Counted from the first letter of the stretch, positions 30,513 through 40,515 are shown. The stretch is 64,000 bases of DNA from Alicyclobacillus sp. (GCA_023511725.1 JAIMAY010000010.1:1-64000); one strand, 5' to 3'. A program made the numbers and translations. The notes: generated by a model not told the origin, from the letters alone.

Positions 30513-30977
30513 TCAGGTAAACGCGCGGCGTGGGCGGCGAAACACCCACAGGCGAAGGCATAGGTAGGTGACACTGGACGAAGTGAACATGGCCAAGCCC
30601 TTGGCGGCGTTGTCGGCCCACAGCACCGGGAGGGTGTGGAGGCTCAGCAGCCAAGCGTCGGCCGCTGTGAGCACCGCGTCATTGATGACCACGTTGAACG
30701 CAGCCTGGATGAGATATGATAGAAACTCTCGCTTTCCGCCGCGCGCCGTGTCGCGGAACGTCCACCAACGGTTCCAGAGGTAGCTGTTGAGCACCGCGCC
30801 GACTACCGCCCCTGTGTTGTACAGCGTCAGCAGCCATGCCGTGTGCGTCGGATGGAGATGGAGCAGGAGGTTGAGGATACCCAGATCCACGAAGGCGTTG
30901 AGCGCGCCGACCATCAGGAACCGGCTGAAACGCGACCAGCCAGCGGGCTGGCGGCGCCTCCCAGTTGCATGCGACAC
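30513..30977 (-). CDS. GtrA family membrane protein
   Basis: 154 residues from GTG at 30977, 8 bases after AAGGGAAG. Four membrane spans, with the family pattern RFLMVGALNAFVDLGILNLL at the first and NSYLWNRWWTFRD after the second. GtrA proteins are thought to flip or help transfer polyprenyl-linked sugars for cell-wall glycosylation. The usual partner glycosyltransferase is not adjacent; the nearest is about 3.5 kb away. Confidence 0.88.
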   Translation of the reverse strand: MSHATGRRRQPAGWSRFSRFLMVGALNAFVDLGILNLLLHLHPTHTAWLLTLYNTGAVVGAVLNSYLWNRWWTFRDTARGGKREFLSYLIQAAFNVVINDAVLTAADAWLLSLHTLPVLWADNAAKGLAMFTSSSVTYLCLRLWVFRRPRRAFT

Positions 30978-31165
30978 GGAGACATCTTCCCTTCTTACGC
31001 TGAGAGGACAGATACGGTCAGAATACCATGCTTTCGCCTGCGTTACCTTCAGCATAGCCGCGGTTTCTCGAAAAAAACTTTAAGAGTACAATGAAAGGCG
31101 TGCGGCGGGGCCGATGCCGCCGTACCGCCGCATGCCGGCGATGACGGAAAGGGGCGCAGGAAAAC

Positions 31166-34465: not shown

Positions 34466-35641
34466 TTACTGCGGGCCCGTGCCCGGGGACAAAAGACGGC
34501 GGAGGGTCCGGTCGACTTCATCGACCCGGGCATCCCACGAATGGCGGGCGGCGAAGGCCGCCCGTTCGTCGTCGGAAAGCCGGCGCTCACCGGCCAGAAT
34601 GCGGCGCACCGCGGCCACAGCCGCGTCCACGTCCCCGGCGAGCCACACGGCATCCGCCATGCGCTGGAGTTCCGGGATGGGGGTTGCCACCACCTCCACG
34701 CCCGCCGCGATGGACTCGTACACCTTGATGGGATTGACGCTCTGGGCCACCGGGTCATCCACGCGGAACGGGCTCAGCGTGGCGCGGAAACCGGCCAAAT
34801 ACCGCGGCAAGTCCGCATAGGGTCGGCGACCCAAGACATGGATGTTGGGCTCGGCGGCGAGTTGGGATACGTCGGTTTCCGCAGGCCCGATGACGACCAT
34901 CTGCACGTCGGGCAGGCGACGGGCCAGCCCAATCATCCACGCTTGGTCTATCCACGTGCCAAGCCCGCCGATAAACCCGATGCGGGGCTCGGGGATGGCG
35001 CGCAGTTCTTCGTGGGGCGTGGCGTGGAACGCCGTTCGGAAGTGTTCCACGTCGGCCGCATTGGGCAACAGGCGCACGTCCCCGTGAACGTCCGTCAGCC
35101 GGGCTTTCAGCGGTTCGGCCGTGGCGAAGACGGCGGCGCTGCGTCGGGCGAGATCGCGCTCCATGGCATCCACCACATCGGGGCGGATCAAGCCGTGAAA
35201 TTGGCTGTGGAGGTCGACGCAATCGTACACCACCGCGCGTGGGCGCAGCGGCGTGAGGAGGTCCGCCGCCGTGGGCACCATCGACCAGAGCGCAAGCGCT
35301 CCAGGTTCCGCCCGCCGGATGGCCCGAGCCAGAGAGCGCTGATTGAGCCGATTGATCATTCGTCGCATGTTGCCGAAGGGCAACCATGCCGGGGGGATGA
35401 GAACCCGCAATCGGCCAGGGACGTTCTGAGCTGTCACATCCTCCAGCGGGTGGGCGGGTCGCAATCGCGCCACCAGCTCGCGGCGGCGGAGGGGGCTCAG
35501 CCAGGTGATGGCGGGATCGACAAACAGAACGGACCAACCGCGGCGGGCGAGTCCCAGGGCGAAATGATGAGGGCGCGCGACAACGCCCTGCCACGGTGAG
35601 GCGGAGAGGATGACGACGGTCACATCCGGGATGCGATTCAT
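34466..35641 (-). CDS. Glycosyltransferase (TuaH-like, GT-B fold)
   Basis: 391 residues. N-terminal segment RPHHFALGLARRGWSVLFVDP and the YDCVDLHSQF segment are typical of TuaH-like transferases; the C-terminal half has RIGFIGGLGTWID, VVIGPAETD, and the donor-site region NPIKVYESIAAGVEVVATPIPE. Last gene of the five-gene minus-strand cluster; its ATG overlaps the CDP-alcohol phosphatidyltransferase stop by 4 bases. By context it may add a sugar to a lipid made by the two enzymes upstream. Donor and acceptor unknown. Confidence 0.88.
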   Translation of the reverse strand: MNRIPDVTVVILSASPWQGVVARPHHFALGLARRGWSVLFVDPAITWLSPLRRRELVARLRPAHPLEDVTAQNVPGRLRVLIPPAWLPFGNMRRMINRLNQRSLARAIRRAEPGALALWSMVPTAADLLTPLRPRAVVYDCVDLHSQFHGLIRPDVVDAMERDLARRSAAVFATAEPLKARLTDVHGDVRLLPNAADVEHFRTAFHATPHEELRAIPEPRIGFIGGLGTWIDQAWMIGLARRLPDVQMVVIGPAETDVSQLAAEPNIHVLGRRPYADLPRYLAGFRATLSPFRVDDPVAQSVNPIKVYESIAAGVEVVATPIPELQRMADAVWLAGDVDAAVAAVRRILAGERRLSDDERAAFAARHSWDARVDEVDRTLRRLLSPGTGPQ

Positions 35642-36399
35642 GGCTCCCCCTCCGCGGACAGTCGCCGACGCGCGCGACCGCTCTTCCAAAACAGCACCGC
35701 AGGCCGGTAGATGCACATCAGAGCGCCGAATACCGCCACAAACTCGAGCAGGGGGCGCACGGCGCCAAACGCCAGGAAGATGGCGAGTACGAGATATTGC
35801 TCTCCAATATTGAAACCGCGAAATGGCACCAACCGCCGCCAGGACGGCACCACATCCTTCACGCCGGCGCCTGCCGTGGTGGTCTCACCAGCGGATGACA
35901 CGGCGGACAGGGGGGCCAGCACGCGAGCCAGTGACTTTTCTCGGATCTGGTCGTAGTACTCCAAAAAGTGCAGGGCGAACACGGAAATCATCGCCCACAC
36001 CCAGATGTCCCAAGCACCGGGATGCGTACGTTGATAACCGAGCGCCAAGGTCAGGTAGATCAAAAACTCTTTCACGCGATCACAGACCATGTCCAGCCAC
36101 ACGCCGATGGGGGAGAACTGTTGCCGATAGCGGGCAAGCTGCCCGTCCGCACAGTCGAACACATAACCCAGCTGGACCAGAATAAGGCCTGCCGTCAGCC
36201 AGGGCCTCGTACCGACGGCAAAACAAGCGCCGCCGACGATGGCGAGGACGAGCGCGAACAGCGTCAGCGCGTTCGGGGTGATCCACCGGATACGGCGAAC
36301 CGCGTACACCAATCGCAGCGAAAAGAAATAGCAGACGTACGTGGTCCACACGTCGACCGGATGTTTCGCGCAGCGCTTGACGCGTTCAAATTCCGTCAC
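35638..36399 (-). CDS. CDP-alcohol phosphatidyltransferase family membrane protein
   Basis: 253 residues with about six spans. The full family motif is present: D82, D85, G86, A89, R90, G99, D103 and D107 (DCADGQLAR then GVWLDMVCD). Such enzymes move a phosphoryl-alcohol from a CDP-activated donor to a second alcohol, making phospholipids or soluble phosphodiesters such as di-myo-inositol phosphate. Both ends overlap their neighbours by 4 bases. The upstream nucleotidyltransferase most likely supplies its CDP-linked substrate; the alcohols involved are not known. Confidence 0.92.
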   Translation of the reverse strand: MTEFERVKRCAKHPVDVWTTYVCYFFSLRLVYAVRRIRWITPNALTLFALVLAIVGGACFAVGTRPWLTAGLILVQLGYVFDCADGQLARYRQQFSPIGVWLDMVCDRVKEFLIYLTLALGYQRTHPGAWDIWVWAMISVFALHFLEYYDQIREKSLARVLAPLSAVSSAGETTTAGAGVKDVVPSWRRLVPFRGFNIGEQYLVLAIFLAFGAVRPLLEFVAVFGALMCIYRPAVLFWKSGRARRRLSAEGEP

Positions 36400-37151
36400 G
36401 CTGTGTCACCTCCGCCCCGGACGGCCGGAGCCTGAGGTTCAAAGTGGCGAATCACTTCGGACACGGCGTAATCGTAGTCCTCGGGGAAGTCCACCTCGAC
36501 GCACGGAAGCCCCGTCACATCGACGGGAAACAGGTGGGCCTTGTCCGGCCACCGGTCCAGGGCGTATTCAAAGAACTGCATCTCATTGCCCGCCACAGCG
36601 TCTGCCAGCACCTGCGCTCGGAAGGATCTTGCGGCGTTCCCACAGAACTTGGCCACGCCGATGAACTCGCCGTCACACGTTTCCGGGTTGAGGTGCTTGC
36701 CGATGGCTATAATCCTGCCGTTTTCAATCTGGACCTTGACCTCTTCTTCCCGGCACTGCTTTTTGTCGATGGCCAGGTATGCGCCGTCCTCACCGGGTGC
36801 GAGGCGCGCCATGATCTGCGGATCGAACACCACGTCCGCGTTGAGGTAGTAGAAATCCCCCTCGTGGGTCTCGAGTGCACACCGAAGTGAGAAGAGGGTG
36901 TTGGTCGTGGCGAAGTTGGGATTCTCCACATACGTTATCCGCATATCGGGGTGTTGGGCCAGGTGCCCGCGGATCATGTCCTGGCGATACCCGACGACCA
37001 CCAACAGGTCATGAACCCCAACGGAGCGCAGGGCGTCCAGTTGCCAGTCGAGGATGGTTTTGGATCCCATCGGCAACAGGCACTTGGGCCGGTCGTCGGT
37101 GAGCGGCCTCAGCCTCATGGATCTGCCTGCCGCAAGAATGATGGCAATCAA
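36396..37151 (-). CDS. NTP-transferase (likely CTP:phosphoalcohol cytidylyltransferase)
   Basis: 251 residues from TTG at 37151, 8 bases after AAGGAGG; a GTG at 37157 is only two bases from that site. The N-terminal nucleotide site LAAGRSMRLRPLTDDRPK is complete with lysine K22; YLNADVVFDP carries a metal-site aspartate. Length and context fit small cytidylyltransferases (LicC, PntC, or the inositol-1-phosphate type) that form a CDP-alcohol for the membrane enzyme encoded next, which it overlaps by 4 bases. Glucose-1-phosphate transferases are the alternative. Confidence 0.87.
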   Translation of the reverse strand: MIAIILAAGRSMRLRPLTDDRPKCLLPMGSKTILDWQLDALRSVGVHDLLVVVGYRQDMIRGHLAQHPDMRITYVENPNFATTNTLFSLRCALETHEGDFYYLNADVVFDPQIMARLAPGEDGAYLAIDKKQCREEEVKVQIENGRIIAIGKHLNPETCDGEFIGVAKFCGNAARSFRAQVLADAVAGNEMQFFEYALDRWPDKAHLFPVDVTGLPCVEVDFPEDYDYAVSEVIRHFEPQAPAVRGGGDTA

Positions 37152-37178
37152 GATCACGGCCTCCTTGGCCGGCGCTCG

Positions 37179-38483
37179 TCATGCGTGCGCCGCCTCATCG
37201 TCGTCTTCGAGATACAGCACCTTCGTGCTCTCGTCATAGGCAAACAGCTCGGAGTAGCGCGCCCAGTCGATGATGGTGTCCAGCTGGCTCTCCGCCTCCT
37301 CCGTGCCGACGTTCTTACGGATAACTTCCAAAAAGAATTCGCGCGGCATGCGCCGGTTGCGTTTGGACTCCAAGACCCAGCGAATGCGCTCGAAGATAGG
37401 CAGGCGTTCGTGCAGTTGAGCGCGGAAGATCTCCTTGCGTTCCAGCACATTGGCGGCGGCGAATCGCTTGCCCACCTCGGTCAGGGAGATATCGCCCTGA
37501 CTCACGGTCGCAAACCCGAGCAACTGGGCCGCTTCCACAATCGGAAGCAGTTCATCGAGGTCAAACATGATCTCATCCGCCAGTTTGTACAGGTCGGATT
37601 TGATCTCGAGATCATCGAGCAGTTCGAGAAAGCCGGTCAGCGCACCCGCCTGCACGGGTGGCAGCACAACGTATCGGCGCTGGGCGCCGCTCGCGGTGAT
37701 CAGCGTCTTTTGGTGCGCCTCACGCGAGTGCGTGAGGATGGAATAGATGCGATCCACCAGCCGCGTGAAAGCTTCTTCTTTGCGCTCGCGCCAGTGCGGC
37801 AGACCGATATGGATATCCGCAATCACGGTGGCCGGGTCTCGGCTGAGCACCACGGCCCTATCCGCCATGTACACCGCTTCCTCGATGCCGTGCGTGACCA
37901 TGATGATGGATTTCGTCGGTATCTTGCGCTCCAGCCACAACTCCAATAGGTCACGGCGAAGGTTCTCCGCCGTGAGCACATCCAGTGCGGAGAATGGCTC
38001 GTCCATCAGCAGGATGTCCGGTTCCATCACCAAGGCGCGCCCGAGGCCGACGCGTTGGCGCATACCGCCCGACAACTCGCGCGGGTACGCCCCTTCAAAA
38101 CCGTCGAGCCCAATCATGTCGATCACGTCCAGCGCCCGCTGTCGCTTCTCCTCTTCGCTCAAGGGCTTGTAGCGCAGCCCCAGTTCCACATTCTCGAGCA
38201 CCGTCAGCCAAGGGAAAAGCGCGAACGATTGAAACACCATGCTGACACCGGGGTTCGTGTCCTTTATCGGTTGTCCGCGATAGCGGACCTCCCCGGAGGA
38301 GGCGCGCACCAAGCCGGCGATGATGCGCAGCAATGTGGACTTACCGGACCCTGAAGGCCCCAAAATGGCGACGAATTCGCCTTCCTCGACGGTGAGATCG
38401 ATGTCCTGAAGCACGGACACCTGCTGCTCACCGGGCGCGTCGTAGCGCTTGGTAATGTGCCGGAGTTCCAACAGCGCTGCCAT
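37179..38483 (-). CDS. NitT/TauT-type ABC ATPase with C-terminal AAA-associated domain
   Basis: 434 residues from ATG at 38483, 8 bases after AAGGAGG. Residues 1-260 are an ABC ATPase: Walker A GPSGSGKST, Q-loop FQSFALFPWL, signature LSGGMRQR, Walker B ILLMDEPFSALD and VTHGIEEA. The remaining 170 residues form the extra helical domain often fused to this branch of nitrate/taurine-type ATPases, probably regulatory. It lies 29 bases after the fused permease gene and 27 bases before the cytidylyltransferase gene. No substrate-binding protein is encoded nearby. Confidence 0.9.
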   Translation of the reverse strand: MAALLELRHITKRYDAPGEQQVSVLQDIDLTVEEGEFVAILGPSGSGKSTLLRIIAGLVRASSGEVRYRGQPIKDTNPGVSMVFQSFALFPWLTVLENVELGLRYKPLSEEEKRQRALDVIDMIGLDGFEGAYPRELSGGMRQRVGLGRALVMEPDILLMDEPFSALDVLTAENLRRDLLELWLERKIPTKSIIMVTHGIEEAVYMADRAVVLSRDPATVIADIHIGLPHWRERKEEAFTRLVDRIYSILTHSREAHQKTLITASGAQRRYVVLPPVQAGALTGFLELLDDLEIKSDLYKLADEIMFDLDELLPIVEAAQLLGFATVSQGDISLTEVGKRFAAANVLERKEIFRAQLHERLPIFERIRWVLESKRNRRMPREFFLEVIRKNVGTEEAESQLDTIIDWARYSELFAYDESTKVLYLEDDDEAAHA

Positions 38484-38512
38484 CCGGATCGCCTCCTTCC
38501 TGCCCGCCATCG

Positions 38513-40261
38513 TCAGCGCCCGCTGACCTCAATCCGGTAACGGCGGTCCGCCAATTGATACAGCGGTCGCCATACAAATCGGTTGACCAGCGTGACCAAG
38601 AGCGCCATGATCACGATGCCCAGGATGATCCGCGGCCAATCGCCTCGCGCCGTGGTTTCCGTGATGTAGGCGCCGAGCCCGCTGGCCGTGAGTGTCGTCG
38701 ACTGCCAATGCACGAGTTCCGCAATGATGCTGGCGTTCCATGCACCGCCGCTGGCGGTGATGCAGCCGGTGATCACATACGGGAAGATACATGGCAGGAT
38801 CAGCGTCTTCCAACGTTCCCAGCCGCGAAGCCGGAGCACCTTGGCCGCCTCTTTGAGGTCGTTCGGGATGGCCTGTGCGCCGGCTATCACGTTGAAGAGT
38901 ATATACCATTGCGTCCCCAGCATCATCAGCGGAATGGCACCGAGTTCAAAGTTGACGTGCAGGTGCAGATACAAGAGCGCAATCAGCGGAAAGAACATGT
39001 TCGCCGGGAACGACGCGAGAATCTGCACCACGGGCTGCGCGATCCGCGACGCGCGCGGGTTGGTACCGATGGCCACGCCGACGGGGATGGTCCAGACCAG
39101 CGCAATCAGCGTCGAGGCCATGACTCGCAGCAGCGTGAACATCCCCAGCAGCACGGCCTGGCCCAGATCCGCCCAGCCCAGGGCCGCAATCTCGTTCACG
39201 CCGATCCATGCATAATACGCGGCGCCAATCGCGATAACCGAGGTCAGAGCCCATGCCAATGCCCTTCGCACGACGCCCTTTCCACGCTGTTCCCGCGTCG
39301 CCTGGCGCCGGGCCATCACCGTGTGGAGGATGGCTCTATCCAGCGCTCGGTAGGCTGCACCAAAGATGTGCCGAGCTATCCACGCCGACACCTTCGAGCG
39401 GCGAAGCAGATCCAGAAACCACGAGCGCGGCGGATCCTGCGCGTTGCTGAGCTCCATCTTGAACTTCTGCGACCATGCGACCAGCGGACGCCAGAACAAT
39501 TGATCCACGAGGACGATCACGATCACCATCGCCACGATGGCCTCCAGCAGCGCCGGAATGTCGCCCTCGGTCATGGCCTTCGCCATGAAGGAGCCCAGCC
39601 CAGGCAGTTGAATGTTTTGGCCGAGTACGGAGATGGATTCACTCGCGGCGAGGAAGAACCAGCCGCCGCCAAAGGACATCATGCCGTTCCACACGAGGCT
39701 GATCATGCCGTGCGGGAGTTCCAGGCGCGTGAACCGCGTGAAGCCGTCGAACCGCTGAATCGCGGCGGCCTCGCGCAGTTCACGCGGAATGGTGCTGACG
39801 GCGTGATAAAAGCCAAACGTCATATTCCAGACCTGTCCCGTGAAGATGGCGAAGATGGCCGCAAACTCGGCGCCCAACAGCCGATGCGGAAACAGCGCCA
39901 GGAACGCGGTCACGGTCACCGAGAGAAAGCCCAGCACGGGCACCGATTGCAGAATGTCAAGGAGCGGAATCATGATGCGCTCGGCGCGGGCGTGCAGCGC
40001 CGCGAATCGCCCGTATATAAAGGTGAAGATGAGGGACAGCCCCAGCGCGATAAACATGCGCAGGAGAGACCGACCGGCATAGTACGGGAGCATGCGCCAG
40101 TCGAGGCTGATCTGCGGTCCTTCGCCCGGGGAGAAAGGTACACCCATGCCACTGCCCAGCCGAACGATGACGTATAGGAGCGAGAACACGAACAAGATCA
40201 CCACGGCGTCCACCCAGCTGAACCGCACCGGTCGTCCGCCGATGGTCCCCGTTCTGAGCAT
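38513..40261 (-). CDS. Fused double permease of an ABC transporter (NitT/TauT-like)
   Basis: 582 residues containing two binding-protein-dependent permease domains in tandem, joined by a hydrophilic linker (about 280-330). Each half has the ATPase-contact loop: REAAAIQRFDGFTRFTRLELP in the first and KEAAKVLRLRGWERWKTLILP in the second. A two-domain permease can serve both sides of one transporter. First gene of the minus-strand cluster with the ATPase next. No periplasmic-type binding protein is present, so substrate and even direction of transport are uncertain. Confidence 0.9.
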   Translation of the reverse strand: MLRTGTIGGRPVRFSWVDAVVILFVFSLLYVIVRLGSGMGVPFSPGEGPQISLDWRMLPYYAGRSLLRMFIALGLSLIFTFIYGRFAALHARAERIMIPLLDILQSVPVLGFLSVTVTAFLALFPHRLLGAEFAAIFAIFTGQVWNMTFGFYHAVSTIPRELREAAAIQRFDGFTRFTRLELPHGMISLVWNGMMSFGGGWFFLAASESISVLGQNIQLPGLGSFMAKAMTEGDIPALLEAIVAMVIVIVLVDQLFWRPLVAWSQKFKMELSNAQDPPRSWFLDLLRRSKVSAWIARHIFGAAYRALDRAILHTVMARRQATREQRGKGVVRRALAWALTSVIAIGAAYYAWIGVNEIAALGWADLGQAVLLGMFTLLRVMASTLIALVWTIPVGVAIGTNPRASRIAQPVVQILASFPANMFFPLIALLYLHLHVNFELGAIPLMMLGTQWYILFNVIAGAQAIPNDLKEAAKVLRLRGWERWKTLILPCIFPYVITGCITASGGAWNASIIAELVHWQSTTLTASGLGAYITETTARGDWPRIILGIVIMALLVTLVNRFVWRPLYQLADRRYRIEVSGR

Positions 40262-40405: not shown

Positions 40406-40515
40406 CTCTTATCAAGAGTGGCGGAGGGACTGGCCCGATGAAGCCCGGCAACCACCGCGGTATGCGGAGAGGTGCCAATTCCTGCAGAACGCAGATGCGT
40501 TCTGAGAGATGAGAG
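40406..40515 (+). ncRNA. SAM-I (S-box) riboswitch
   Basis: The S-box core is plain: closing stem CTCTTATC (40406-40413) pairs with GATGAGAG (40508-40515); inside are AGAGTGGCGGAGGGACTGGC, CCGATGAAGCCCGGCAACC and GGTGCCAATTCC. It binds S-adenosylmethionine and, when bound, lets the terminator at 40543-40570 form, shutting off metX-hom. The 402-base region between the permease start and metX holds only the promoter, this RNA and its terminator. Confidence 0.97.

Follow-up and report, generated by a model that had tools for sequence, protein, structure and literature searches.

Five minus-strand genes at 34466–40261 of the window, by which we mean the whole 64,000-nucleotide stretch of Alicyclobacillus sp. 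DNA that was analyzed, probably represent two modules at one syntenic site. One is a CDP-alcohol phosphodiester pathway encoded by three genes, and the other is a separable ABC transporter of the importer type encoded by two. From the sequence relationships described below, the product of the trio is probably a glycosylated phosphodiester, either an envelope lipid or a solute.

Gene layout and conservation of the locus

The cluster begins with a fused double ABC permease (38513–40261, minus strand, 582 aa) made of two BPD_transp_1 halves with an EAA loop in each. It is followed by an ABC ATPase (37179–38483, minus strand, 434 aa) in which Walker A, LSGG and Walker B are present. Then come a LicC/PntC-type nucleotidyltransferase (36396–37151, minus strand), an AF2299-like CDP-alcohol phosphotransferase (P0004; 35638–36399, minus strand) that overlaps its neighbor on either side by 4 bases, and a 391-aa glycosyltransferase of the GT-B type, loosely TuaH-like (34466–35641, minus strand). 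The Pfam domains in the cluster are BPD_transp_1 (two stretches), ABC_tran plus AAA_assoc_C, NTP_transf_3, CDP-OH_P_transf and Glyco_trans. Together with the ORFs, they agree with the place and order that an earlier sequence-only reading of this DNA had given, and the extra C-terminal ATPase domain noticed there is AAA_assoc_C (PF09821).

The junctions from permease to glycosyltransferase, by ORF coordinates, are 29, 27, −4 and −4 bases. These are the gaps and overlaps originally reported, with the 27 depending on which start is assigned to the nucleotidyltransferase. The mechanical ORF start is a GTG at 37157, which would make the ATPase gap 21 bases. The DNA at this point reads AAGGAGG-CCGTGATC-TTG, and because AAGGAGG is spaced 8 bases from the TTG at 37151 and only 2 from the GTG, the TTG and the 27-base gap are the better call. 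A strong promoter and terminator in that gap had been proposed as the sign of separate units; inspection of the gap found no promoter- or terminator-like site. The flanking genes, an acyl-CoA synthetase-like gene downstream and a metX-like gene upstream, are both on the plus strand, so the five genes stand alone, and they may be co-transcribed in this genome. The metX-like gene is preceded by a SAM riboswitch (RF00162, 98 bits, 40406–40515, plus strand). A small GtrA-like membrane protein gene was also seen by eye 3.4 kb beyond the cluster (30513–31055, minus strand), and it is not conserved in the neighbors.

The family survey covered 41 Alicyclobacillaceae genomes. Orthologues of the phosphotransferase occur in 35, of the nucleotidyltransferase in 32, of the glycosyltransferase in 27 and of the transporter ATPase in 10. 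The phosphotransferase accompanies the nucleotidyltransferase in 32/32 genomes (Fisher p 2e-5, in a test that ignores shared ancestry). In a sample of 398 Bacillota genomes, the phosphotransferase had three matches besides the window's genome, all weak, and by this sequence comparison it appears nearly confined to Alicyclobacillaceae. Several members of the family also carry a second CDP-alcohol phosphotransferase paralogue at 27–32% identity.

The search for the same five-gene order in other Alicyclobacillaceae, suggested by the sequence-only reading, found it in G029, G030 and G038; G034 and G039 show it too, up to where their contigs end. Since the order recurs in this way, it is not due to chance. 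The recurring clusters have 46–86% protein identity and occupy the same syntenic site; the ATPase orthologues are 78–86% identical in nine relatives. The two modules also occur apart. The transporter adjoins the trio in six genomes (G000, G029, G030, G034, G038 and G039), is 8.9 kb from the pathway genes in G031, and occurs without the CDP-alcohol genes in G032, G033 and G037. In G033, it adjoins the glycosyltransferase only, and a search of the 1.4 kb gap there for remnants of the missing genes gave no match. In G037, it is alone at the same syntenic site. Many genera have the trio without the transporter, set between these same flanking genes, with the metX-like gene and homoserine dehydrogenase on one side and acyl-CoA genes on the other. 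In Sulfoacidibacillus (L103) and at a further locus (L105), the glycosyltransferase comes first, followed by the nucleotidyltransferase and then the phosphotransferase, again with no transporter. The trio itself is not obligate, because the A. acidocaldarius-like group is missing the glycosyltransferase, having the core pair only and at a different site, and the g5 genomes have no nucleotidyltransferase orthologue. The simplest reading is that there was an ancestral five-gene site and that lineages have since lost one or the other module.

The probable CDP-alcohol pathway and its product

The phosphotransferase is closest to AF2299 in both sequence and predicted fold. A profile search gave AF2299 at 1e-20, IPCT-DIPPS at 7e-7 and the PI-phosphate synthases at 1e-5, and the predicted model (pLDDT 87) matches AF2299 with a Z of 23.2 and an rmsd of 2.1 over 206 residues. 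AF2299 binds CDP-glycerol with the glycerol part in a small hydrophilic pocket (PMC4634129). The CDP-alcohol motif DxxDGxxAR(x8)GxxxDxxxD, earlier described as complete, does have all eight of its residues (D82, D85, G86, A89, R90, G99, D103 and D107); it is invariant in a 16-sequence alignment, and the PF01066 match is over the Pfam cut-off. We considered and rejected the possibility that this gene is a housekeeping duplicate: besides it, three CDP-alcohol genes occur in the genome, read by eye as two PgsA-like and one PssA-like.

The nucleotidyltransferase is probably a CTP:phospho-alcohol cytidylyltransferase. Its profile matches LicC at 5e-22 and PntC at 4e-16 along the whole domain, while the Archaeoglobus inositol-phosphate cytidylyltransferase reaches only about 1e-6 to 1e-5. 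The predicted model (pLDDT 92) has PntC as its top match with a Z of 29.4, followed by LicC at 27.4. The glycosyltransferase scores 68.5 bits against the NCBIfam TuaH equivalog, for which the cut-off is 550, and so falls outside TuaH proper; TuaH, a wall-polymer family, is nevertheless the nearest, and in that loose sense the original label can be kept. Its role in the trio would be to add a sugar.

Judging from its nearest relatives, the nucleotidyltransferase would activate a small phospho-alcohol with CTP. The fold and motif of the six-helix phosphotransferase suggest that it would take the phospho-alcohol off its soluble CDP donor and attach it to a hydroxyl acceptor, most likely a membrane lipid or a lipid-linked glycan, yielding a phosphodiester and CMP. 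The GT-B enzyme would then glycosylate the product, or else make the glycosylated acceptor. The coherence of this module is supported by the constancy of the core pair, by the survival of the trio through reordering without the transporter, and by relatives of all three genes at a single distant Bacillota locus (L130, 3043–14260). The route from cytidylyltransferase through CDP-alcohol transferase to glycosyltransferase is the part of the earlier proposal that has support, and the part concerning the transporter has none.

The L130 cluster contains, in addition to trio relatives at 30–38% identity, MurJ, glycerol-1-phosphate dehydrogenase, an SLH protein and CsaB. It is of interest in itself in that archaeal-type glycerol-1-phosphate is possibly used there in a bacterial wall polymer. 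Homologues of the nucleotidyltransferase in Neomarinimicrobiota (L108–L110) have Glyphos_transf and LicD genes as neighbors. This envelope context, and the fact that TuaH is the nearest family to the glycosyltransferase, argue against a product that is a soluble glycosylated phosphodiester osmolyte, along the lines of diglycerol phosphate or mannosyl-DIP, instead of an envelope lipid. Nonetheless, we give the osmolyte perhaps one chance in a few, since neither AF2299 nor DIPP synthase, structurally the closest relatives, acts on lipids (PMC4634129), and the passage on fulgidus in PMC1224877 also counts in its favor. In either case, that a family of acidophiles conserves the pathway is a pointer to a compound of the envelope or a solute, one which appears in the family's routine lipid profiles only under unidentified phospholipids and glycolipids (PMC11123200). 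In the polar-lipid literature on Alicyclobacillaceae, we found nothing specific on a phosphoglycolipid.

The ABC transporter

Each half of the permease has an importer-type EAA motif, one at residue 164 and the other at 471. Such loops are typical of importers that need a binding protein. Like the Type I importers of the NtrB/SsuC/TauC group, the permease has the BPD_transp_1 fold and the EAA loops. It departs from them in that, as the sequence-only reading had it, no cognate binding-protein gene adjoins the transporter at the locus. An orphan binding protein encoded elsewhere was also sought and rejected: a search of the whole genome for the NMT1 type gave nothing convincing, the only match being to PF09084 at an E of about 1e-5.

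The same permease/ATPase pair is found on plasmids of other phyla, alone or beside divalent-cation genes. In 7 of the 17 such regions, the neighbors are VIT, CDF, MgtC or Nramp genes, and in none of the 17 are there lipid genes beside the pair. Since the neighbors elsewhere are often divalent-cation genes, an inorganic ion would by analogy be the most likely cargo. These seven neighborhoods are also a hint that PF09821 transporters more generally have a divalent-cation or related ion role. The literature on COG4986/COG4754 yielded a passing mention only, and none was found on the AAA-associated domain. The transporter is a widespread orphan of the importer type, probably with a job separate from that of the pathway. 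It would work without a binding protein, would have joined the site of the pathway genes in an ancestor, and would be at most co-expressed with the trio in the window's genome.

One could instead suppose that the five genes are one functional unit, with the transporter importing the alcohol, the phospho-alcohol or a needed ion for the CDP-alcohol pathway, much as choline uptake feeds the lic pathway. The short gaps with no terminator, the adjacency of transporter and trio in six genomes and the importer type of the EAA loops all fit such a unit, and the tight packing in the window's genome does leave some room for a functional link. However, close packing alone is no evidence of joint function, and the survey speaks against it. 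The phosphotransferase is present in 7/10 genomes with the transporter versus 28/31 without it, and over the 41 genomes the transporter shows no link to the nucleotidyltransferase or the phosphotransferase (one-sided p 0.87 and 0.98, with shared ancestry ignored). The junction between the modules varies in relatives from 15 to 206 bases and opens to kilobases in G031, whereas the trio junctions overlap in the window. The transporter persists in G033 and G037 though the CDP-alcohol genes are absent, and the unrelated flanks (metX and the acyl-CoA genes) are also syntenic over a wide range. Outside Alicyclobacillaceae, among the 17 regions, the pair never adjoins CDP-alcohol or lipid genes. We therefore regard a single unit as unlikely. 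About equally doubtful is the broader proposal of an undescribed, family-wide glycosylated phosphodiester lipid or wall component, made by a separated AF2299-like route, to which the importer supplies a precursor or metal in some lineages. The suggestion that the transporter carries the product, or some precursor of it, across the membrane finds no support in the importer-type loops, the lack of co-occurrence, the three genomes in which it occurs without the CDP-alcohol genes, and the plasmid neighborhoods free of lipid genes. Two modules at one site remains the reading that we prefer.

The probable alcohol and comparison with known systems

Of the PntC consensus, R15 and K25 are invariant in the aligned nucleotidyltransferase orthologues. 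The acid that faces the amine of the substrate is D105 in LicC and E104 in PntC (PMC6697681). At that position, all aligned orthologues have Asn106, as do L130 and the Neomarinimicrobiota homologues. The sharing of Asn106 with those loci argues, indirectly, for an envelope role and for a small uncharged polyol, glycerol being an example; we consider such a polyol likelier than choline, an amine or inositol. No strong match to glycerol-1-phosphate dehydrogenase (PF13685) was found in the window's genome, nor in several others that hold the core pair, so that a strict requirement for the glycerol-1-phosphate route is rejected and the alcohol or its isomer may differ.

A phosphonate substrate such as 2-aminoethylphosphonate, leading to a phosphonolipid or phosphonoglycan, would accord with PntC being the top structural match and with the place of PntC genes in phosphonate pathways (PMC6697681). 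It is quite improbable, given that the amine-facing acid is replaced by Asn106 and that no PEP mutase is among the annotated neighbors of the cluster. An inositol-phosphate pathway to phosphatidylinositol phosphate, or to the di-myo-inositol phosphate that had been listed as an option, is very improbable: archaetidylinositol-phosphate and DIPP synthases are the best NCBIfam names for the phosphotransferase, though far below cut-off, but inositol-phosphate synthase (MIPS, PF07994) is absent from 41/41 family genomes, and the positions of K135 and R137 of the Mtb PI-phosphate synthase appear to hold Gly, Asp, Gln or Ile in a profile alignment in which R152, R155 and R195 are not safely alignable. 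In many other Bacillota, a fused cytidylyltransferase/CDP-alcohol phosphotransferase of ~450 aa lies directly after inositol-phosphate synthase, and these homologues have the motifs GNGxS, MADH and VDCG where the Alicyclobacillaceae have TNTxxS, NAD and GEFIG.

The transporter is the same two-gene module as other duplicated-permease ABC systems with a PF09821 ATPase, which are related to NtrB/SsuC/TauC, are annotated as "nitrate/sulfonate/bicarbonate", and likewise have no adjacent binding protein; among the regions searched, a CDP-alcohol pathway stands alongside only in Alicyclobacillaceae. With LicC (CTP:phosphocholine) and PntC (CTP:2-aminoethylphosphonate), the nucleotidyltransferase shares the whole-domain profile, the fold, R15 and K25, but it differs in the asparagine near the amine and in having a CDP-alcohol phosphotransferase as partner instead of LicD, with no lic or PEP mutase neighbors seen. 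The pathway is built from already known parts in a new arrangement, and its product is uncharacterized. It resembles AF2299 and IPCT-DIPPS of Archaeoglobus fulgidus in combining a cytidylyltransferase-type domain with a CDP-alcohol phosphotransferase and, as predicted for the cluster, a soluble CDP-alcohol donor. The cluster differs from them in having a nucleotidyltransferase of the LicC/PntC type, in being without inositol-type motifs or inositol-phosphate synthase, and in placing the activities on separate overlapping genes, after which the glycosyltransferase follows. Activities that the archaeal bifunctional enzymes join in one protein are here on separate genes, each of which can be assayed by itself.
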